Positions 22,984 to 59,301 of a DNA stretch of 64,000 bases are shown here, piece after piece. The translations under genes and the position numbers were made by a program. How positions within the stretch are numbered: the stretch's first letter is position 1; every line of letters begins with the position of its first letter. Origin of the DNA: a methanogenic archaeon mixed culture ISO4-G1 (GTDB lineage: Archaea; Thermoplasmatota; Thermoplasmata; Methanomassiliicoccales; Methanomethylophilaceae); contig CP013703.1 in the NCBI GenBank assembly GCA_001563305.1, forward strand, positions 1,475,773 through 1,539,772. The letters run 5' to 3'. The notes beneath the pieces were generated by a model that had not been told where the DNA came from, made no database searches, and saw only the letters and a list, made by a program, of their open reading frames with translations.

Positions 22984-23108
22984 TATATAGGAATCGCCCG
23001 TTCCGACGGGTACAACCTAGCATTCCGATAGGGGTTTAATAGGGAACAACGCGGTGTATTTTCGAAGTGGACCGCCAAGCGGTCTGGGAATCAAAGGAGG
23101 ACGCAGAA
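22984..23108 (+). promoter_or_regulatory. Putative mttB promoter and structured leader
   Basis: A TATA-like element TATATAG (22984-22990) is followed by a leader with two hairpins. The first is CCCGT/ACGGG (22997-23001 with 23006-23010, loop TCCG). The second is GACCGC/GCGGTC (23070-23075 with 23079-23084, loop CAA), ending 10 bases before the AAAGGAGG ribosome site. Most other genes here have almost no leader, so this long structured 5' region is unusual in the window. A regulatory role is inferred only. Confidence 0.4.
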
Positions 23109-24569
23109 ATGAGAATGCCAACATACCAGGTGCTTTCCAAGTCGGAACTGGTGGCCATCGATGCCGCCACCAAGAAGGTCCTCTCGGAAACGGGAGTCCT
23201 CGTGGAGACGAAGGAGGCCCGTGACATCTTCAAGGACGCAGGATGCGATGTCAACGAGAGGACGATGAACGTCAAGATCCCCGAGGAACTCGTGGACTGG
23301 AGCGTTTCTGTATGTCCGTCCGTGGTCACCACATATTCTCGCGGTGACGACAGGAGCAAGGACCTGGTATCCCGTGCCGACGGTACCAAGACCAACTACA
23401 TCACGTTCGGTACCGGCACCAGGATGAGCCACTATCTCGGAAACGGGAAATACGATGTGAGACCCAGCTGCCTGGAAGACATCGGTCACATCGCCAAGAT
23501 GGTGGACGGCCTCGACAACATCGACTGCATCCTCGGACCCGTCACAGCCATGGATTACATCCAGGACGGGCGCCATCTCCGTGAGGTGGACATCATGATG
23601 AGGAACACCAGCAAGCCCCTCATCCCGGAGTCCGAATACGAGTATCTGGACCTCTACTACGAATACGTCAAGGCGGTCTACGGCGGGGACGAGGAGATGG
23701 CCTGGAAGAGACCCTTCATCAGCAACGTCACATGCCCGGCCAGTCCGCTTCAGCTCAACGTCCCCCTGTGCGAGATCATGATCCATTCGGCGGATTACGG
23801 AGCACCTGTGATACCCCTTTCCATGGCCATGGGCGGTGCGACATCCCCCATAGACATCGCGGGAACGCTAGTCACCCACAACGCGGAGGTTCTGGCCTCG
23901 ATCGTCCTGGTCCAACTCGCCAATCCCAAATGGCCCACCATCTACGGAAGCTCCACGACATGCTTCGACCTGTTCAACACGGTCGCCTCCGTAGGGTCCC
24001 CGGAACTCGGTCTGATCAGTGCAGGAGTTACAGCGCTGGCACAGTTCTACGGACTGCCCTGTGTGGTAGCCGGTCTTTAGTCCGATTCCAAGGTCGTCAA
24101 CAGCCAATCCGGGCATGAGAAGACCATCACATCGCTGCCGTCCGTACAGTTGGGAGCATCCCTCGTGTACGGTGCGGGCATGTTGGATCTCGGAATGACA
24201 TTCTCCCTAGAGCAGCTGGTCATCGACAACGACATAATCGGTATGATGAAGCACGTGACCGAGGGAATTGAAGTGACCATCGACACGCTGGGAGTTGACC
24301 GCATAGCCGAGATCGGCAGTGGAGGGGACTTCACCGGCCATCCGGACACATTCGCGAAGATGAACATCCTGTCGAACCCCAAGGTCATCAACCGCCAGAT
24401 GCGCGGAGCATGGGAGGCCGACGGCCAGAAGAACGACGTTGACTACGCCCACGAGGTGGTCATGGACATCCTGGAGAACCATGTCACCGAACCGATAGAG
24501 CATCAAGCCGACTGCGACAAGGTCGTGAAGATGGGTGTCGAGAGGCATCACAAACTGGCAGGTGATTGA
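23109..24569 (+). CDS. mttB: Trimethylamine:corrinoid methyltransferase MttB, pyrrolysine-containing
   Basis: MttB moves a methyl group from trimethylamine to the corrinoid protein MttC for methylotrophic methanogenesis. The 486-residue protein contains one in-frame TAG (24078-24080, residue 324) in the family context CVVAGL-Pyl-SDSKVVNSQ, followed by SGHEKT and LVYGAGMLDLGMTFS, so the product is full length only if TAG is read as pyrrolysine. The start MRMPTYQVLSK (ATG 23109) has AAAGGAGG 8 bases upstream. Neighbours are a tRNA-Lys and an ABC exporter; no mttC, mtbA or pyl gene is in the window, so its partners lie elsewhere. Final stop TGA. Confidence 0.95.
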
Positions 24570-49771: not shown

Positions 49772-50599
49772 TCATTCGGAGGGTTCGAGTTCTTCCTCGG
49801 AAACATCGTAGTCATTGCCGGCCAGAGGATCGATGTCCTGATCGCTGGCTAGCATATGGGGCCTGCCTTCGTAGGTCACGATCTCCGAATGCACACCGTA
49901 GACGTGCAGGATGTTCTCCGCGGTGAGCACCTCCTCCGGAGTCCCGTCCGCATAGATGCCCCCGTCGTACATCATGACGATCCTATCCGAATAACGGGAA
50001 GCTATGTTCAGGTCGTGGCAGATCATGATGATCATGATCCCCTTCTGATGTGCCAGATCCCTCAGCAGGTGTGCGACGGACATCTGATGCATGATATCGA
50101 GATTTGCCGTAGGCTCATCCAAAAGCAGGAGCAAGGAACCCTGCACCAGACCTCTTGCGAGCATGACCTTCTGATGCTGTCCGGCAGAGAGTTCGTTGAA
50201 CATGCGCAGGGACAGGTCCTCGATGCCCATCAGCTTGATCGCGGAATGAACTATCCTCAGATCCTCATCCGTCCTGCGGTTCCCAGAGTGAGGATACCTT
50301 CCGAGCATGACAGTATCGACAACGGACATGGGGAACGAGGTCTGCGAAGAGTAGGGAACGTAACCGACCATCCGGGCCAGCTCTTTCAGGGAATAATCCT
50401 TCACATCCTTACCGTCGATGGTGACGGAACCGGAATTCGGCTCGAGGATCCTGTTGATACAGTGGATCAGCGTGGATTTGCCGACTCCGTTCGGTCCGAG
50501 TATGGAAACGAACTGAGATCCCTCTATCCTCAGGGACACGTCCTTGAGCACCGGTTTCTCTCCATATCCAAAGTTAAGGTTCTCGATATTCAATTCCAT
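49772..50599 (-). CDS. FecE/BtuD-type ABC ATPase
   Basis: ATPase of a type II importer. The 275-residue protein has Walker A GPNGVGKST, signature LSAGQHQK, Walker B LLLLDEPTANLDI and the H-loop MIICHDLNIA. It is last in the nitrogenase-like operon, 9 bases after the second permease. Substrates of this family are ferric siderophores, heme or cobalamin; with a nitrogenase-like reductase upstream, a metal-containing cofactor or metallophore is the natural guess. The C-terminal 40 residues are acidic. Confidence 0.92.
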   Translation of the reverse strand: MELNIENLNFGYGEKPVLKDVSLRIEGSQFVSILGPNGVGKSTLIHCINRILEPNSGSVTIDGKDVKDYSLKELARMVGYVPYSSQTSFPMSVVDTVMLGRYPHSGNRRTDEDLRIVHSAIKLMGIEDLSLRMFNELSAGQHQKVMLARGLVQGSLLLLLDEPTANLDIMHQMSVAHLLRDLAHQKGIMIIMICHDLNIASRYSDRIVMMYDGGIYADGTPEEVLTAENILHVYGVHSEIVTYEGRPHMLASDQDIDPLAGNDYDVSEEELEPSE

Positions 50600-50608
50600 T
50601 TCATTACC

Positions 50609-51670
50609 TCAGTTCCAAGTGCGTCTGTGTTGTTTTACCAGTATGTAGATGAAGATTGGTCCGCCGATGATCGCTGTTATGACTCCTACGGGAAGTCCTG
50701 TAGGGGTGCATTCGATCGCTATGCAGTCCGCAGCAGCAAGGATAAGCGCACCTGCCGCTGCCGAAACAGGTACCAGATATTTGCAGTCGGATCCCATGAA
50801 GATTCTCATGATGTGAGGTGCCACCAGTCCTACGAACCCTATGGTTCCGGTGAAGCACACTACGGTGGCAGTCACCAGGGACACCGCACAAATGCTGATC
50901 AGCCTGACCTTCTTTACGCTGACTCCTGTGGTAAGTGCCAGCTCGTCATTGTTGGACAGAAGGTTCAGACGTGAGAACAGTATGTAGAAGAAAAATATCG
51001 ACACGATGCAAGCCACTATCAGGAACGGTGCGGTCGTCCATGTGGTACTCCCGAGTGTTCCCAAGGCCCAAGAGAAGACAGCCGCGTACGTCTCATCCGA
51101 AGCGGTCAGTTTCAACATAGTAGTGCAGGCTCCAAACAGATACATCACGGCGATACCTATCAGGATCATCGTGGTGGAGCTCGCCCTCTTCTTCAGAGAG
51201 CTCAGGGACAGAATCGCCATCGCCGGGACCAATGACAGTATGAAGGCGTTGATAATCATCCCCAGATCTCCCGTGATTGTAGGGATCACGAATATCCCCG
51301 CGATAGTTGCCAGTGCCACTCCGAAATTAGCTCCGGACGATATTCCTGTGATGTATGGGTCCGCCAGAGGATTCTTCAGTGTCGTCTGCATGGCGCATCC
51401 ACAGACGCCCATGATCGATCCGGCCGTCAGAACTGCAATCAAACGGGGCACGGACTTCTCCCAGACAACATAATCATCAGTACCGATGATAGGATTGCCC
51501 ATGAGATGCTGGAAGAACACCTCATACGCCCAAACGAAATCGATGTTGTATGGTCCCAAAGGTATCTCGAGCAGAGAAATTGCTATGGCCATCACAGCCA
51601 CTATAGCAATTATCGTTGCCTTCCTTCTACCGACCTTACGGTATACCTCGATGAATCTCCTGTCATCCAT
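50609..51670 (-). CDS. FecCD-type ABC permease
   Basis: A 353-residue permease with about ten helices. Family motifs seen: AGSIMGVCGCAMQTTLKNPL, ADPYITGISSGANFG and GFVGLVAPHIMRIFMG. The start ATG 51670 overlaps the upstream permease stop (TGATG); a GTG at 51679 is the alternative. With the paralogous permease at 51670-52956 it probably forms a heterodimer. Confidence 0.9.
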   Translation of the reverse strand: MDDRRFIEVYRKVGRRKATIIAIVAVMAIAISLLEIPLGPYNIDFVWAYEVFFQHLMGNPIIGTDDYVVWEKSVPRLIAVLTAGSIMGVCGCAMQTTLKNPLADPYITGISSGANFGVALATIAGIFVIPTITGDLGMIINAFILSLVPAMAILSLSSLKKRASSTTMILIGIAVMYLFGACTTMLKLTASDETYAAVFSWALGTLGSTTWTTAPFLIVACIVSIFFFYILFSRLNLLSNNDELALTTGVSVKKVRLISICAVSLVTATVVCFTGTIGFVGLVAPHIMRIFMGSDCKYLVPVSAAAGALILAAADCIAIECTPTGLPVGVITAIIGGPIFIYILVKQHRRTWN

Positions 51671-52956
51671 CAGTCCCACATCTCCTGACGGTCCCTGATC
51701 ACCAGAAGAAGGAATATCGGCCCTCCGATGAATGACATTACGACCCCGACCGGAAGGTCGTTTATTCCGATGTTAATACTGATGAAATCGGCGATGAGCA
51801 GAATGATTGCACCCAATATCGCCGATGCTGGTATCACATACCTTGTGTTACTGCCGAAGAACATGCGCACGATATGCGGTGTTACGAGTCCCAAGAACCC
51901 GATGATACCGACGTAGCTGACGACAGACGCCGTCATGAATGACAATAGGATGAGGCACATCATCCTGTAGTTGTCCACGTTCAGACCCAGCGCCTTGGCT
52001 TCGTTGTCCCCCGCCATCAAAAGGTTGAGTCTGCTGGATGTAAGATATAGGAAGATTGAACCGATGAGTGTAATCGTGAACATCAGAGGTATCCAGCTCC
52101 AGCTGGCACCACTGAGGGAACCCACCTCCCAAACGAATGTCTCCTTCAGAGAGGTCTCATCCGCTATGGACATGATCAAGGTGGTGAAGGCACCGAATAT
52201 CGAAGATACGGCCGTTCCGACAAGAATGATAGTAACAGGAGAACTGCTGCTTATCCTGGAGACCAAGATCATTATCGTGGCAGGGATCAAACTGAAGATG
52301 AAGGCATTAAGTATCAGTCCGAACTGGCCTGTTCCGCCCACTGTAAGTCCCAGTATGAGGCCCAGACACACGCCGAACACCGCACCCGATGATATCCCTG
52401 TGGTATATGGGTCGGCAAGCGGGTTCTTGACGACACTCTGCATGACTGCTCCGCCTATGGCCAAGGCCATTCCCGCGATGATTGCCACGAGCACTCTGGG
52501 AAGACGCGCGTTCCAGAGGATCAGATCGGCCCACCAGTCAGCAGTCCCCGGTTCGTACTCTGCGCCCATGAGGTGCTGCCAGATGAGTCTGAACACATCC
52601 GTGATCTCGAAATAGTTGATACCTACAGACATCTCCAATGCGGCCATGAACACGGCCGCCACCAAAAGCAGGAGGATGAGAATCAATTTGACCTTGACAC
52701 TCGCCCGATAACTGCTGAAGAAATCACTCCCGTCACCGGCTTTCAGATATTTCCTCACGTAACGTGTGAGTCCGGATGTGCGCTCGTTATAAATCACGCA
52801 TCCGCAGATTATGCAAGTGATGGATACAATGAGGCCTGCAGTCGACCAAATGATGACTGGATCAATGCCCTTATTGTTCATGATCGCAAGGACTATGACC
52901 CCTGAAAATGCCATCAGGAGAATGATCGTTGCCAAATTGAAGACATATTTCTTCAT
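51670..52956 (-). CDS. FecCD-type ABC permease with extra N-terminal helices
   Basis: A 428-residue permease. The core, from about residue 90, shows the same motifs as its neighbour (GMALAIGGAVMQSVVKNPL, ADPYTTGISSGAVFG, GFLGLVTPHIVRMFFG). It has an N-terminal extension of about 85 residues with two further hydrophobic helices and a CIICGC cysteine group that is not typical of FecC or BtuC. The gap to the substrate-binding protein is 42 bases; the overlap with the next permease shows coupling. Confidence 0.9.
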   Translation of the reverse strand: MKKYVFNLATIILLMAFSGVIVLAIMNNKGIDPVIIWSTAGLIVSITCIICGCVIYNERTSGLTRYVRKYLKAGDGSDFFSSYRASVKVKLILILLLLVAAVFMAALEMSVGINYFEITDVFRLIWQHLMGAEYEPGTADWWADLILWNARLPRVLVAIIAGMALAIGGAVMQSVVKNPLADPYTTGISSGAVFGVCLGLILGLTVGGTGQFGLILNAFIFSLIPATIMILVSRISSSSPVTIILVGTAVSSIFGAFTTLIMSIADETSLKETFVWEVGSLSGASWSWIPLMFTITLIGSIFLYLTSSRLNLLMAGDNEAKALGLNVDNYRMMCLILLSFMTASVVSYVGIIGFLGLVTPHIVRMFFGSNTRYVIPASAILGAIILLIADFISINIGINDLPVGVVMSFIGGPIFLLLVIRDRQEMWD

Positions 52957-52998: not shown

Positions 52999-54246
52999 TC
53001 AGGCCATCTTTTCCTTGGTCCAAAGGAACTGACCGTTTGCCTTGTAGTCGATTCCCTCGATGTCCAGGAGCTGCTGGTGCCACTTATCCCCGTATCCTGC
53101 TCCGAACACATCAGGGTAGAGGTACTCGGCGATGTACGCAATCCTCAGGATCTGGGGCAGTGTGAAGTCGATGACACAGAATTTACCAGCCTTGTATGCA
53201 TCGGTCTGGTCGATCATCGCACCATACTTGTTGTAGACGGCCTGGCGGGCTGCATCATCAACAGCGTATCCCATGGTGTAGATCCTCACCATGTACTCGT
53301 TGTGATAGTTCAGGAGCCAGGTGTTGTTGTCTGCGTTGAGGACCCTGTAGTTCTCCCAGTCCGCAACGGAGATTCCTCCTGCGAATTCCAATGCCTCGGT
53401 GTAAGGTCCTCCGGAGGATCCTCCCTTTCCAGCACAGGCCTGTCCGCCAAACCAGATGAGCGCCGTGTGACGCTTGTCCATGGGTATGGTAGCGACCTTC
53501 TTCTCGATCTCGTCGAGCATGTCATGGCACCATTTGGAGTACTTCTGGGACTGTTCAACGTGGCCGCAGATGAAACCGAGGGTCAGAGCTGATGATGAGC
53601 TCTCCTTCCCATCCAATCCGGCAATGTGGATGATGTCAACACCCGCCGCATCATACAGTGCCTTGGTACCGTCGCTGCAAGTCGTGTTTGTTCCGACGAT
53701 AACCGCATCGGGGACACCATTGGATGTCACGGACTCAAAATCATCAAGCCCGTCGGAGATGACCTTGGCTCCCTCGAAGTTCTTGAAAACGATCGAGTCC
53801 TTCTTGGTGTATGCCAAAACATCAGGGTACTTGACTCCAACAGCGTTGACCATGAGCTGGGGCGAGTTGGAGAGGACTACAACCGTCTTGATTGGAAGTG
53901 TTACCTCTGCAAGTTTCTCCGCTCCATCGATGTAATAGACCTTTGTGCCGGTCTTATAGTCGATCAGGTCCTGGACGTATGCCACGTCCTTGTCATCGAC
54001 CTTTCCGTCGTGGTTGGCATCGGAGAATGTCGTCTCCTTCTTGTCCCCTTTGATCACCGCGTTGATGTATGCGATGTCGGCCGCGTCGATGACGCTGTCC
54101 TCGTTTGCGTTTCCGTAAACCTTCAGCTCACCGCCGTAGTCGATCTGCTTCTCGGAGCTTCCTCCTCCCATCATTATGAAGGCGGCGACTCCGACTCCGG
54201 CCACGATGACCACGGCCAGGAGCGCAATCATGATTTTCTTATCCAT
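52999..54246 (-). CDS. Substrate-binding protein with dockerin-like calcium repeats
   Basis: A 415-residue exported protein. After a signal/anchor (about 5-27) lie two dockerin type I-like repeats, GNANEDSVIDAADIAYINAV (about 45-64) and SDANHDGKVDDKDVAYVQDL (about 75-94), the second with a full DxNxDG calcium loop. Residues 110-415 form a FecB/BtuF-like binding fold (TVVVLSNSPQLMVNAVGV, then PDAVIVGTNTT). It lies between a nitrogenase-like gene and two permeases. The dockerin part could dock to a cohesin or just be a calcium-stabilised linker; no cohesin is in the window. Confidence 0.85.
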   Translation of the reverse strand: MDKKIMIALLAVVIVAGVGVAAFIMMGGGSSEKQIDYGGELKVYGNANEDSVIDAADIAYINAVIKGDKKETTFSDANHDGKVDDKDVAYVQDLIDYKTGTKVYYIDGAEKLAEVTLPIKTVVVLSNSPQLMVNAVGVKYPDVLAYTKKDSIVFKNFEGAKVISDGLDDFESVTSNGVPDAVIVGTNTTCSDGTKALYDAAGVDIIHIAGLDGKESSSSALTLGFICGHVEQSQKYSKWCHDMLDEIEKKVATIPMDKRHTALIWFGGQACAGKGGSSGGPYTEALEFAGGISVADWENYRVLNADNNTWLLNYHNEYMVRIYTMGYAVDDAARQAVYNKYGAMIDQTDAYKAGKFCVIDFTLPQILRIAYIAEYLYPDVFGAGYGDKWHQQLLDIEGIDYKANGQFLWTKEKMA

Positions 54247-54277: not shown

Positions 54278-55525
54278 TCACAAGGCGTTCATTATACGAT
54301 CCAGCAGGTACATCGCTCCGCGGCATCCCAATACAGGGGATTCACGGAAATCCACATTCTGTATGGAGGGGAAACACACGTCAACGCCTCTCCTGCAATG
54401 TTTGGATAGTTCGTACAACTTCGCCGTGTTACCGTCGCAGATCATGCAGTCCACGAAATCGGGGACCTCCGAGTCCAGACAGTTTCCTAAATGGTTTTGT
54501 TCCAAGAATGTGGAAAGTGAATGCTCCAGCGGCCCGCAGTCCTCACCGTTGGACCTTATCGAGACCGGCACCATGGCGAGTGACTCGTACAGCCACTTCG
54601 TCAATGGATATGCCGTCGAGGGATCCGCGTCTATCGCGAACGTCCTGCCCTTCACCTCGATGCGTGCGGATCTCATACATCTGTAGGCACGCTGCATGTA
54701 AGCTCCAAGATAATCTCTGGCAGGCTTCGGGTCCTTCCTGGTGCGCTCGCATATCAGATCGATGAACTCTTTGATTGCATCGAACCCCACCGGCGCATAG
54801 CCCAGACAGATTGCCGGGATCCCGAACCTCCTCTTGTAGTACGATGCGGTCTCTTTCGAGTATTCGGGAGAAAGGATGACGTTGAACTCTGCGGAAGCAG
54901 ACCTCCTGATCTCATCTACAGTGCATCCCGCACCCAGGTAGCATGTGACTTTGAGTCCGAGCGATCCAAGGATCTCGTCAAGCTCTTTCCTGACGGTCTG
55001 CCAGTCCTTGCTCAGGACGTTAAGGCCAAGGATATTCACTGTGTCCTTGACAGTGGGCCGCGCATCCTTGATGATAAAATCGGCTATCTTCTCGAGCGTT
55101 CTGTCCATACCGTACCCGCATGATTTGGATATGAGACTCGAATCCAATGCAAGTGCCAGACTCTCGAAACCTGAATCATTTATCGCCTTGTTCACATCGT
55201 CTCCGATCAGGGATGCCCCGGGGGACGAGACGACGGTTATCATGTTGTCCTCGTACTGACTGACGAATCTCAGGGCATCGCTGAGCTTGCCCTGAGCACC
55301 GACGATGTAATCCGTGGAGATGATCCCGGTACAGGGCAATCTGGGCATGTTATGGTAGTACGGAGTGCCCATATCGAACTTGCAACAGTTGTCACGCGGG
55401 AACACCTTGTTAGACAGAACTGAAAGATTCTTCCTGCATCCATCCGGACCGTGCAGGAGGGTCGTCGAATCCGCGATGCCCTCCGCGGCCATCACCGTGC
55501 CTATGAATCCATCGGGTTTGACCAT
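54278..55525 (-). CDS. Nitrogenase component-1-like protein (second subunit)
   Basis: A 415-residue NifD/NifK-superfamily protein. The N-terminal part has HGPDGCRKNLS (Cys30), a Cys47-Cys48 pair and Cys65 in MPRLPCTGIISTDYIVG. The usual third cluster position reads SSPGASLIGDDV, Ser/Ala-rich instead of Cys. The domain end has DFRESPVLGCRGAMYLLDR. It starts (ATG 55525) within the stop of the NifH-component-1 fusion (TGATG), so the two are made together and probably form a heteromer. Not a true NifD: MoFe-cofactor ligand motifs are not evident. Function unknown. Confidence 0.85.
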   Translation of the reverse strand: MVKPDGFIGTVMAAEGIADSTTLLHGPDGCRKNLSVLSNKVFPRDNCCKFDMGTPYYHNMPRLPCTGIISTDYIVGAQGKLSDALRFVSQYEDNMITVVSSPGASLIGDDVNKAINDSGFESLALALDSSLISKSCGYGMDRTLEKIADFIIKDARPTVKDTVNILGLNVLSKDWQTVRKELDEILGSLGLKVTCYLGAGCTVDEIRRSASAEFNVILSPEYSKETASYYKRRFGIPAICLGYAPVGFDAIKEFIDLICERTRKDPKPARDYLGAYMQRAYRCMRSARIEVKGRTFAIDADPSTAYPLTKWLYESLAMVPVSIRSNGEDCGPLEHSLSTFLEQNHLGNCLDSEVPDFVDCMICDGNTAKLYELSKHCRRGVDVCFPSIQNVDFRESPVLGCRGAMYLLDRIMNAL

Positions 55526-57663
55526 CACAGCCCATCACCCCATGATTTCCAGCCCTCGTCCATAGGGGTCCTGAGGATGCTGTCTATGAATTCCAGATAA
55601 TTGATTGATGCATGATGGGTCAGGGCCTCGAACGAGATCGGAGCGTAATGGCATCCGGCCATCTCCGCCACATGCTTGCTGCCGATGATCAAGTCTGGCC
55701 CTATCTCCTGGACCCTCTCGACTATGGATCTTATGGGAAGGTCCCTGACTATCGGGACGCTGTCAGCGCACCTCATGTCACGTGTCACGGGCGATGATTT
55801 TCCCATACGGTAGACGAACACCGTAACAACATCGGCGCCAGCATCCATCAGGCATTCCACCGCCCAGTCGATGTCGAAGAAGGAGCTCACTACGAATACG
55901 ACCTTCCTCCCTTTGAGGGAATCAGAACATCTGGCCACGGCCTGCTCGTATTCCGCCCTGTAGCCCTCCAAGACCTTCTCAGGATCCTTCCCGATGATTC
56001 CGCATACCTTCCTGACCCATTCCTCCGTCTGTGTGAATCCCTATGGAAGAGTGCCGTCCAGTATGTCCAGTTTTGATGAGAAGAACGAACGAAGGTCCTG
56101 GTTGTCCATGACCATCGCTGTGAACCTGTTCCTCCGGCAGGTGCGTATGGACTCCACCGTGCAGTCCTCGAACAACTTGGTCCCCATCTCCATGCCGATA
56201 TCGGACAGGACGCTCCTGAGCCAACGGTCGTTGGAGCCGATGTTGTACTGCATGAACGTATCGTCTATCAGGTTCAATCTGTTATCAGTCGGTTCGATGC
56301 TTTCGTCGATGAACTTGGTGAGCTCGTTCACGACCTGGATTCTTCCCGAATCGCTGCTACCGGAAAGATTCCCGTCTGCCATGACAGGGATGATGTTCAC
56401 ACCTGGATGCTGCAGTATCTCGTCGGCGATTATGTTCCGCACATCGTCGCCGATCATCCCTGAGACGCATGTCGTGATGACCATGATGTTGTTGAGACCC
56501 TCATCGATCATCGATTCCAGGGTTCTGCAGAGCGGTTCCTTCCCCCCGAATATGCAGTCACCGTCGGTCATGTCTGTACAACGTACGTTGTTACGAAGCT
56601 TGACATCCAGATGGATGTTCTCTGAGATCTCGGAAAGATAATGGTTGTCCTGTGTGTGGGACATGACGTAACCGCAGGCCCTCGGACCATGTACCAGTAT
56701 GGGCAGATCCGTGACCCTTCCAGCCGCATATACGGCCCCCCTCGACGCACACGACTCCATGCCGATGGGTCGTGATTCGGCCTTCTTCCTCGGAGTCGGC
56801 TCGATGACTGAGACGGCCCTCCCGAAGATGATCTCCTCAAGACGGGCATCGGACAACGGTTTGGGAAGGCTGAGCTCCTTCTTCCCGTACATTAGTGACG
56901 AAATATCCTTCGCAATGGTCTCGTAACATTTGGCGGGAACCGATTCAGGAAACAGTTCACTGAGTGTCCTCCCTTTGGATTCGGACTCTTGGAACAGCTG
57001 ATCCCTCGGGATCACGGAGATTATCGGCAGACCTACGGCATCGGCGAACTTGCGTACGGTCTGCTCCTCATCCTTGACCCCACGGCAATTGAGTATGATG
57101 CCCCCGATGCGGGGTTTGTTCCCGAAATTGCTGGCCCCACGTAGAATGTTGTTGGCTGCATAGATCGCCATGTACTCGCCTGAGGTCACTATGTAGATGA
57201 CATCAGCGTACTCCTGGCGCATCGGAACGGCGAACCCTCCGCACACGACATCCCCCAGAACATCGTATATGGTGAAATCCAAGGGAACATCGTCTATTCC
57301 CAGCCGCTTCAGGACATCGAATGATGTCAGTATCCCTCTTCCGGCGCAGCCTATCCCGGGCTGGGGGCCGCCGGCCTCTATGCAGGCTATTCCGTTGGTG
57401 CCCTCAAGCATGACGTCGTCGAGACTCCTCTCGTTCGGAGGGACCTGCGATATGTAATCCAGTACGGTGGTCTGCACTGAATTGTTTAGGAGTAATTTCG
57501 TCGAATCGTGCTTGGGGTCGCAACCCATCTGGAGGACACGATAACCAAGCTTGGAAAGGACGTAGGAAATGTTCGATGATGTGGTTGATTTACCGATACC
57601 TCCCTTGCCGTAAATAGCGATCTTGATACCAGTTGGACTAATCATCCAACAGGCATCTGACAT
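55525..57663 (-). CDS. NifH-like Fe protein fused to nitrogenase component-1-like domain, with in-frame TAG
   Basis: The 712-residue frame is read through one TAG (56041-56043, residue 541). Residues 13-265 are a complete NifH: P-loop GKGGIGKST (19-27), GCDPKHDST, and both [4Fe-4S] ligands (Cys106 in GIGCAGRG, Cys141 in [11 protein letters not shown]). From about 295 there is a component-1 domain with Cys305 and Cys330 spaced as in NifK (24 between), and CVSGMIGDD at Cys399. After the TAG the frame continues [14 protein letters not shown] and then [19 protein letters not shown], which completes the domain. No start codon with a ribosome site is seen after the TAG. The operon is led by this gene, next to a 10-bp dyad. 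Confidence 0.87.
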
Positions 57664-58210: not shown

Positions 58211-59301
58211 CACAGCACAGAGAACTTGCCGAAGACCTTCATGGCGAACCAGGCTGCGCCCTGTATGAACCTGAACGTCCTGGAATCGCCGTCGAAATTC
58301 TTGCAGAGCCAGATCGTGAACTTCTGACCGAGGTTCTCGGTGGCCTTCCTGCCCTTGAAGACGTCGGTGTCGAGTATCTCCTGGTAGTAGGAGGTCTTCT
58401 TCGCATACTCCCAGAACACGTCCGCCTTGGGCCAGTACGTGTTCACCCAGGGCTTCACCGATCCCACATAGTGGATGATGGCGGGGTCCACGATGGCCTC
58501 CCTATAGGAGTCCTTCTAGGCACCCTCCTCTATGATGTCGAACTGCTTCATCCAGGCGGTCACCTGGTAGTTGTACCTGCACGGCAGGATCTTATGACAG
58601 TCGTAGAACACGATGTTCATGAGGTCCTGGTCCTGGAAGGGCAGCTCGTTGTGCGTCAGGATGTCCACGATGGTGTCGTAGAAGCAAGGGGCGTCGATCG
58701 CCGAGACGTCGAAATGGATCAGACCGCCGTTGAAGTACACCTTGGGGTCCTTCACTCCCTGCGATTTGATGAGCTTGGCCCTCTTCTCCATGTACCTCTC
58801 CATGTGGTGGGCCGCGGCGTCCGTGACCCCCATGACCTATTTGCCCTCGAAGTCCGCATCGAAGACGGAATCGACGTCGAGGAAGATCATGTCCGAATCC
58901 AGATAGAGGACCTTCCTGTAGTCATGCATCATGATCGGGATGAAGCACCTGTAGTAGGTGGACACGTTCCAGTAGGACCTGACCTTGAGCATGTCCTTGA
59001 AGAGGGCGTTGACCGCATCGTTCACGTTGAAGAAGCGGATGGAGAAGTTCTCGGGTGCCATCTCGGTGAGTCTGGCTATGTTCTGCTCCCCTACGTTGGA
59101 ATGCATGATGACGATGTCGTACTTCCTTCCGGGGGTGGAGTTGTCGATGAGGGACTGCAGGGCGGGTGCGAAGAACTTACTGAAACCCTCGCTGATCACG
59201 TACACGATCGTCACCGCATCGTCGTCGAAGACCGGAGGTATCATGTGGTAGTACTGTTCCAGGATCTTGCCTGTGTCCGTGTGATCGTTGTCCACCCTCA
59301 T
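58210..59301 (-). CDS. GT8-family glycosyltransferase with two in-frame TAG codons
   Basis: A 363-residue frame if both TAG codons (58837-58839, residue 155; 58516-58518, residue 262) are read as amino acids. All three parts carry conserved GT8 features: the DxD metal site KVLYLDSDMIFLDVD (Asp135/Asp137) before the first TAG; VYFNGGLIHFDVS and FQDQDLMNIVFYDC between them; and IIHYVGSVKPW after the second. No frameshift and no TGA or TAA occur inside. The ATG (59301) overlaps the stop of the DedA-like gene. Pyrrolysine or another amber decoding is the likely reading; a recent pseudogene is the alternative. Confidence 0.8.

Follow-up and report, generated by a model that had tools for sequence, protein, structure and literature searches.

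A nitrogenase-like fusion gene of the methanogen ISO4-G1 with an in-frame amber codon, probably read as incidental pyrrolysine

Results

Gene organization of the locus

The analysed window is a stretch of 64,000 nucleotides of the ISO4-G1 genome. On its minus strand, a gene for a NifH-like Fe protein fused to a NifD-type component-1 domain is followed by a gene for an unfused NifK-type partner and by genes for a FecCD-type importer (Table 1). The frame of the fusion gene opens with the ATG at 57663, meets a single TAG at codon 541, and then runs through 171 sense codons to a TGA (55527-55525). The first-pass annotation had described the frame in this way, with LP immediately before the TAG and GFTQTEEWV after it, and re-reading of the minus strand gives the same course and the junction ...DGTLP / GFTQTEEWV.

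Table 1. Features of the nitrogenase-like locus, in window coordinates.
Feature	Position	Strand	Basis
NifH-like Fe protein + component-1-like (NifD-type) fusion gene, TAG read as sense, 712 aa	55525..57663	-	Pfam, orthologs
NifH/CfbC-like ATP-binding Fe-protein domain, residues 14-279	56827..57624	-	PF00142, E 1.9e-89
Component-1-like domain, residues 305-712; Cys305, Cys330 and Cys399 shared by 90-100% of homologs	55528..56751	-	PF00148
In-frame TAG, residue 541, predicted pyrrolysine	56041..56043	-	frame reading, ortholog alignment
TGA that ends the read-through frame and shares one base with the next ATG (TGATG)	55525..55527	-	
NifK-type component-1 partner, unfused, translationally coupled, 415 aa	54278..55525	-	PF00148, E 5.1e-43
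Probable substrate-binding protein of the adjoining FecCD-type importer	52999..54246	-	position and length; sub-threshold dockerin match alone
FecCD-family permease	51670..52956	-	PF01032, E 1.7e-85
FecCD-family permease	50609..51679	-	PF01032, E 9.9e-77
ABC transporter ATPase, FecE type	49772..50599	-	PF00005, E 6e-30
Perfect 10-bp inverted repeat TACGATATTT-N17-AAATATCGTA, abutting the fusion start codon	57664..57700	.	

The earlier proposal that the two parts together make a complete component-1 domain, similar in size to that of the neighbour, is borne out. A Pfam scan returns one continuous PF00148 match across the TAG (residues 305-669 of the fusion protein), and the component-1 part has about 410 residues, compared with 415 in the unfused homolog. 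Scanned alone, the 171 residues 3' of the TAG match positions 228-357 of PF00148 (E 4.4e-10), which is the next stretch of the profile. By base composition, the probability of 171 codons in a row without a stop is about 0.0015, and the other five readings of the segment contain 12, 5, 3, 5 and 11 stops; the low probability and the homology together exclude chance as its origin. In the relatives G073 and G029 (L091, L092), the gene ends at the equivalent of position 711 and adjoins the start of the partner gene. In combination with the continuous Pfam match and the TGATG overlap, this identifies the read-through TGA as the real gene end. Full-length orthologs that are free of internal stops (L010, L011) share 47-50% identity with the fusion protein.

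The inverted repeat upstream of the fusion gene is possibly an operator of the nitrogenase-like/importer operon. The exact TACGATATTT-N17-AAATATCGTA repeat was not found in the loci fetched from elsewhere.

Nitrogenase-like family

The proteins score below the NCBIfam equivalog cut-offs for NifHDK (TIGR01287, 314.6 against 394.35; TIGR01282, 73.3 against 653.55; TIGR01286, 36.8 against 427.3), for CfbCD of F430 biosynthesis (NF033200, 317.2 against 402; TIGR03282, 26.1 against 268.4), and also for DPOR. The combination of PF00142 and PF00148, the NifH-type P-loop Fe protein and the ligand-type cysteines place them among nitrogenase-like component-1/component-2 systems. In the fusion, Cys106 and Cys141, the pair of the Fe protein, and Cys330 and Cys399 of component 1 are invariant, Cys305 is present in 90% or more of the homologs, and Cys29 and Cys64 of the NifK-type partner (numbering of the aligned sequence) are also invariant. 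In view of what is typical of the family, the cysteine positions of fusion and partner suggest an Fe-S-cluster-relaying reductase. The best 50 Foldseek matches cover the Fe protein only, and none the component-1 half.

There are four NifH/component-1 fusions in ISO4-G1 and more in some relatives, and some of them lie beside FecCD-type transporter genes. They belong to a large nitrogenase-like family, as yet uncharacterised, of gut Methanomassiliicoccales. Adjoining FecCD-type genes are seen in several relatives and at a second ISO4-G1 locus. It is a reasonable guess that the enzyme may act on an iron chelate, or on a compound resembling a tetrapyrrole, after its import.

Amber decoding in ISO4-G1

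This rumen methanogen reads UAG as pyrrolysine (Pyl), the 22nd amino acid. Its PylRS gene (L053:7689-8507) encodes a protein that is 100% identical over 273 aa to the ISO4-G1 PylRS of PDB entry 8ifj. A tRNA-Pyl gene with the anticodon CTA (L053:7603-7673) lies just upstream of pylS, and frames that match pylB, pylC and pylD in size and order follow 3' of it. The published pyl operon of ISO4-G1 is AUP07_0651-654 (PMC4824259). One TAG each is present in both mtmB (MtmB) genes and in four of the five mttB-family genes. The MttB-type methyltransferase gene inside the window (23094-24566, plus strand) carries its expected Pyl TAG at 24078-24080 and is a positive control for amber decoding. PylRS was also found in all four checked relatives with TAG-bearing homologs (G001, G008, G010, G028).

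Codon usage was surveyed with a simple home-made, codon-usage-based gene caller in 284.5 kb, made up of the window and sampled stretches (18% of the genome). Of about 265 sampled genes, TGA terminates 237, TAA 17, and TAG no more than one; in the single possible TAG-ended gene, a TGA follows 8 codons later. The rarity of TAG terminators points to efficient constitutive decoding. A symmetric census of in-frame stops flanked by coding sequence returned seven TAG, seven TGA and one TAA. All seven TAGs lie inside single genes, five in genes of methylamine methyltransferase type and two in one family-8 glycosyltransferase gene. All but one of the flanked TGA and TAA codons have a new start within a few codons, and these are gene boundaries. 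The nitrogenase-like fusion falls just below the local score threshold of this census, which is therefore independent of it.

The family-8 glycosyltransferase gene (58213-59301, minus strand) has its two in-frame TAGs at 58837-58839 and 58516-58518. The read-through product (363 aa) matches PF01501 with E 1.8e-36, compared with 1.3e-12 for the first piece alone.

Sequence constraint beyond the TAG

Component-1 columns were counted as conserved if 80% or more of 26 homologs agreed. By this measure, the fusion protein retains 34 of 37 conserved columns upstream of the TAG and all 14 downstream. GC content by codon position is equal on either side. A point against read-through is the lower identity to near orthologs after the TAG (27-34%) compared with that before it (42-52%), although the C-terminal part is less conserved in all homologs.

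Among the PF00148 matches listed for ISO4-G1 and 60 relatives, four have a TAG within the domain, and none is interrupted there by TGA or TAA. The TAGs of other homologs are found at the equivalents of positions 383, 480, 543, 549 and 574. In the tree, every included TAG sits on a separate tip, and within the clade of 10 that contains the fusion, TAG is seen in ISO4-G1 only. The TAGs at 284-290 in L033 and L058 were not counted, since they fall in the NifH/D linker, which may be a true gene boundary. Several TGA codons that might have counted as interruptions were rejected: those of L033, L075, L076, L077, L091 and L092 are natural C-terminal or upstream stops, and that of L078 sits at a broken contig end.

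In L060 (from G010), the TAG at the equivalent of 549 replaces a near-invariant Trp (TGG to TAG). It is less neutral than the ISO4-G1 case, and may be a Pyl substitution that is damaging or has been compensated.

The residue 541 site

Residue 541 stands between the near-invariant Pro540 and the invariant Gly542. The first-pass annotation had suggested finding out what relatives carry between this Pro and Gly. In near orthologs, the residue is Gln (CAG), Arg (CGC) or Lys (AAG, AAG, AAA, AAA); among wider homologs, Val, Ile, Leu, Thr, Met, Pro, Lys and Arg occur. None of the aligned relatives that could be read at this column has a TAG there, so that the site is not conserved as a Pyl site; in the nearest relative (G006, 66-67% identical), the contig ends before the column. 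TAG is one base away from CAG and from AAG. In an AlphaFold model (mean pLDDT 83), residue 541 falls between a strand (534-538) and a helix (542-557). Pyrrolysine is a lysine derivative, and a change from Lys or Gln to Pyl in the loop before the helix would therefore be chemically mild. This is the pattern expected under neutral drift in a genome that in effect uses TAG as a sense codon, unlike that of a selected catalytic Pyl.

Discussion

The reading that we favour, with a probability of about 0.85, is that the TAG is translated as pyrrolysine, giving a full-length fusion coupled to its partner, and that this Pyl is an incidental, non-catalytic residue fixed by neutral drift. The tRNA-Pyl(CUA) and PylRS of ISO4-G1 would decode the codon, and the 712-residue product would end at TGA 55525, translationally coupled to the NifK-like partner. 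A point mutation, for which CAG (Gln) and AAG (Lys) are the simplest starting codons, would have created the TAG at a variable position ahead of a component-1 helix, and the codon would have persisted because the genome uses TAG as a sense codon. As it persists as an ordinary sense codon, the Pyl is most likely incidental.

Amber decoding as such is very likely from the sequence data. The view of the first-pass annotation that the protein is full length only with such decoding is upheld by the pyl operon with its tRNA-Pyl, by the rarity of TAG terminators, by the continuation of a conserved component-1 domain past the TAG, and by the presence of TAG alone inside related domains. The accompanying suggestion, that Pyl is thereby placed in a nitrogenase-like enzyme, holds for the decoding; a special role of the residue is not supported, given the variable column (Lys, Gln, Arg or Val) and a TAG confined to ISO4-G1.

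A recent nonsense mutation, which would leave a pseudogene or only a 540-residue product lacking the last third of component 1, could explain why the TAG is restricted to one member of the clade, and the other NifH-component-1 paralogs of the genome are intact. Such a mutation is nevertheless unlikely: the 2.1 kb carry no further lesion, every conserved column 3' of the TAG is retained, the TGATG junction is still coupled, the tRNA-Pyl/PylRS pair is present, TAG hardly serves as a terminator in the sampled genes, and homologous domains are interrupted by TAG alone among the matches listed. Even less credence is due to a sequencing or assembly error at 56041-56043, the least probable of the alternatives. 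The single-base distance to CAG or AAG would make such an error easy, but the sequence is a finished isolate genome obtained by 454 and MiSeq (PMC4824259), further TAG genes lie nearby, and like events are found in several relatives, the probable ISO4-H5 genome among them. Neither a sequencing error nor a pseudogene would favour TAG so strongly over TGA and TAA.

Two other alternatives accept decoding and differ from our reading in what it is for. Termination could be regulated, so that NifH with a truncated D part is made along with the full-length fusion, in proportions adjusted to the supply of methylamine or Pyl. tRNA-Pyl always faces competition from termination, and regulation of the Pyl cassette has been discussed (PMC4153887); a 540-aa product could coexist with the full-length fusion. 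As an explanation of the TAG, dual output is nonetheless improbable in view of the near absence of TAG terminators, which suggests constitutive decoding, and of the ordinary RNA structure 3' of the codon: in a search for a PYLIS-like signal, the single-strand fold after the TAG was no more stable than those of shuffled sequences (z 0.08). That Pyl541 was selected because it serves the enzyme, for instance by providing an electrophilic side chain close to the substrate or the subunit interface, appears more doubtful still. Pyl is catalytic in methylamine methyltransferases, and the site is part of a conserved P-x-G turn, yet the x of this turn varies (V, K, R, L, I, Q, M, P, T) and is occupied by Lys, Gln or Arg in the near orthologs, and the TAGs of other homologs lie elsewhere. 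If Pyl541 were functional after all, this would be the first nitrogenase-like enzyme to use pyrrolysine.

In the fusion gene of this methylotrophic methanogen, the case for TAG acting as an ordinary sense codon is well supported. A standard gene caller would cut the enzyme short and miss its last quarter. In the family, TAG occurs several times independently and at variable positions, and neither TGA nor TAA interrupts the domain among the matches listed; the family thus offers a clean natural test of the neutral spread of the 22nd amino acid. Confirmation of Pyl541 would extend physically observed Pyl beyond methyltransferases and Thg1.

Comparison with known systems

With NflHDK, CfbCD, DPOR and methylthio-alkane reductase, the ISO4-G1 proteins share the pairing of a NifH-type reductase with a component-1 heterodimer (PF00142 and PF00148). 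They differ in the fusion of the Fe protein to the D-type subunit, and in the FecCD-type importer in the operon.

With respect to amber codons, the statement of the first-pass annotation that Pyl is so far known mostly from methylamine methyltransferases falls short of the published record. Of the 25 Pyl genes predicted in ISO4-G1, 9 encode methylamine methyltransferases and 16 other proteins (PMC4824259), and the fusion gene may be among the latter. Similarly, 16 non-methyltransferase Pyl genes, including those for Cas1 and MtxX, have been predicted in 'Ca. Methanomethylophilus alvus', where TAG accounts for 1.6% of terminators (PMC4153887). Low use of TAG as a terminator and amber codons scattered over unrelated genes are common to both organisms, although the species and the genes are different.

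A single-species in-frame amber codon in a widely conserved gene is also known from Methanosarcina acetivorans Thg1. Pyl is reported to be inserted there, with proof at the protein level, and not to be needed for activity (cited in PMC2933860 and PMC3639795). The two cases differ in that Pyl is proven in the Thg1 protein, whereas it is predicted in the ISO4-G1 fusion, a nitrogenase-like enzyme.

The closest parallel comes from ISO4-H5, in which 46 amber genes have been reported, including 'a predicted nitrogenase gene', AR505_1289 (PMC5011839). Genome G075 contains a NifH/component-1 fusion with one in-frame TAG, at 480 in the numbering of the ISO4-G1 protein; we infer that G075 is ISO4-H5 and that this fusion is AR505_1289. 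The two genes come from the same order and gene family, and each has a single in-frame TAG. The G075 fusion is another paralog (39% identity), with its TAG at 480 instead of 541. The ISO4-G1 fusion thus adds to a known class, the incidental Pyl proteins of amber-decoding methanogens, and has a published precedent in the same gene family.
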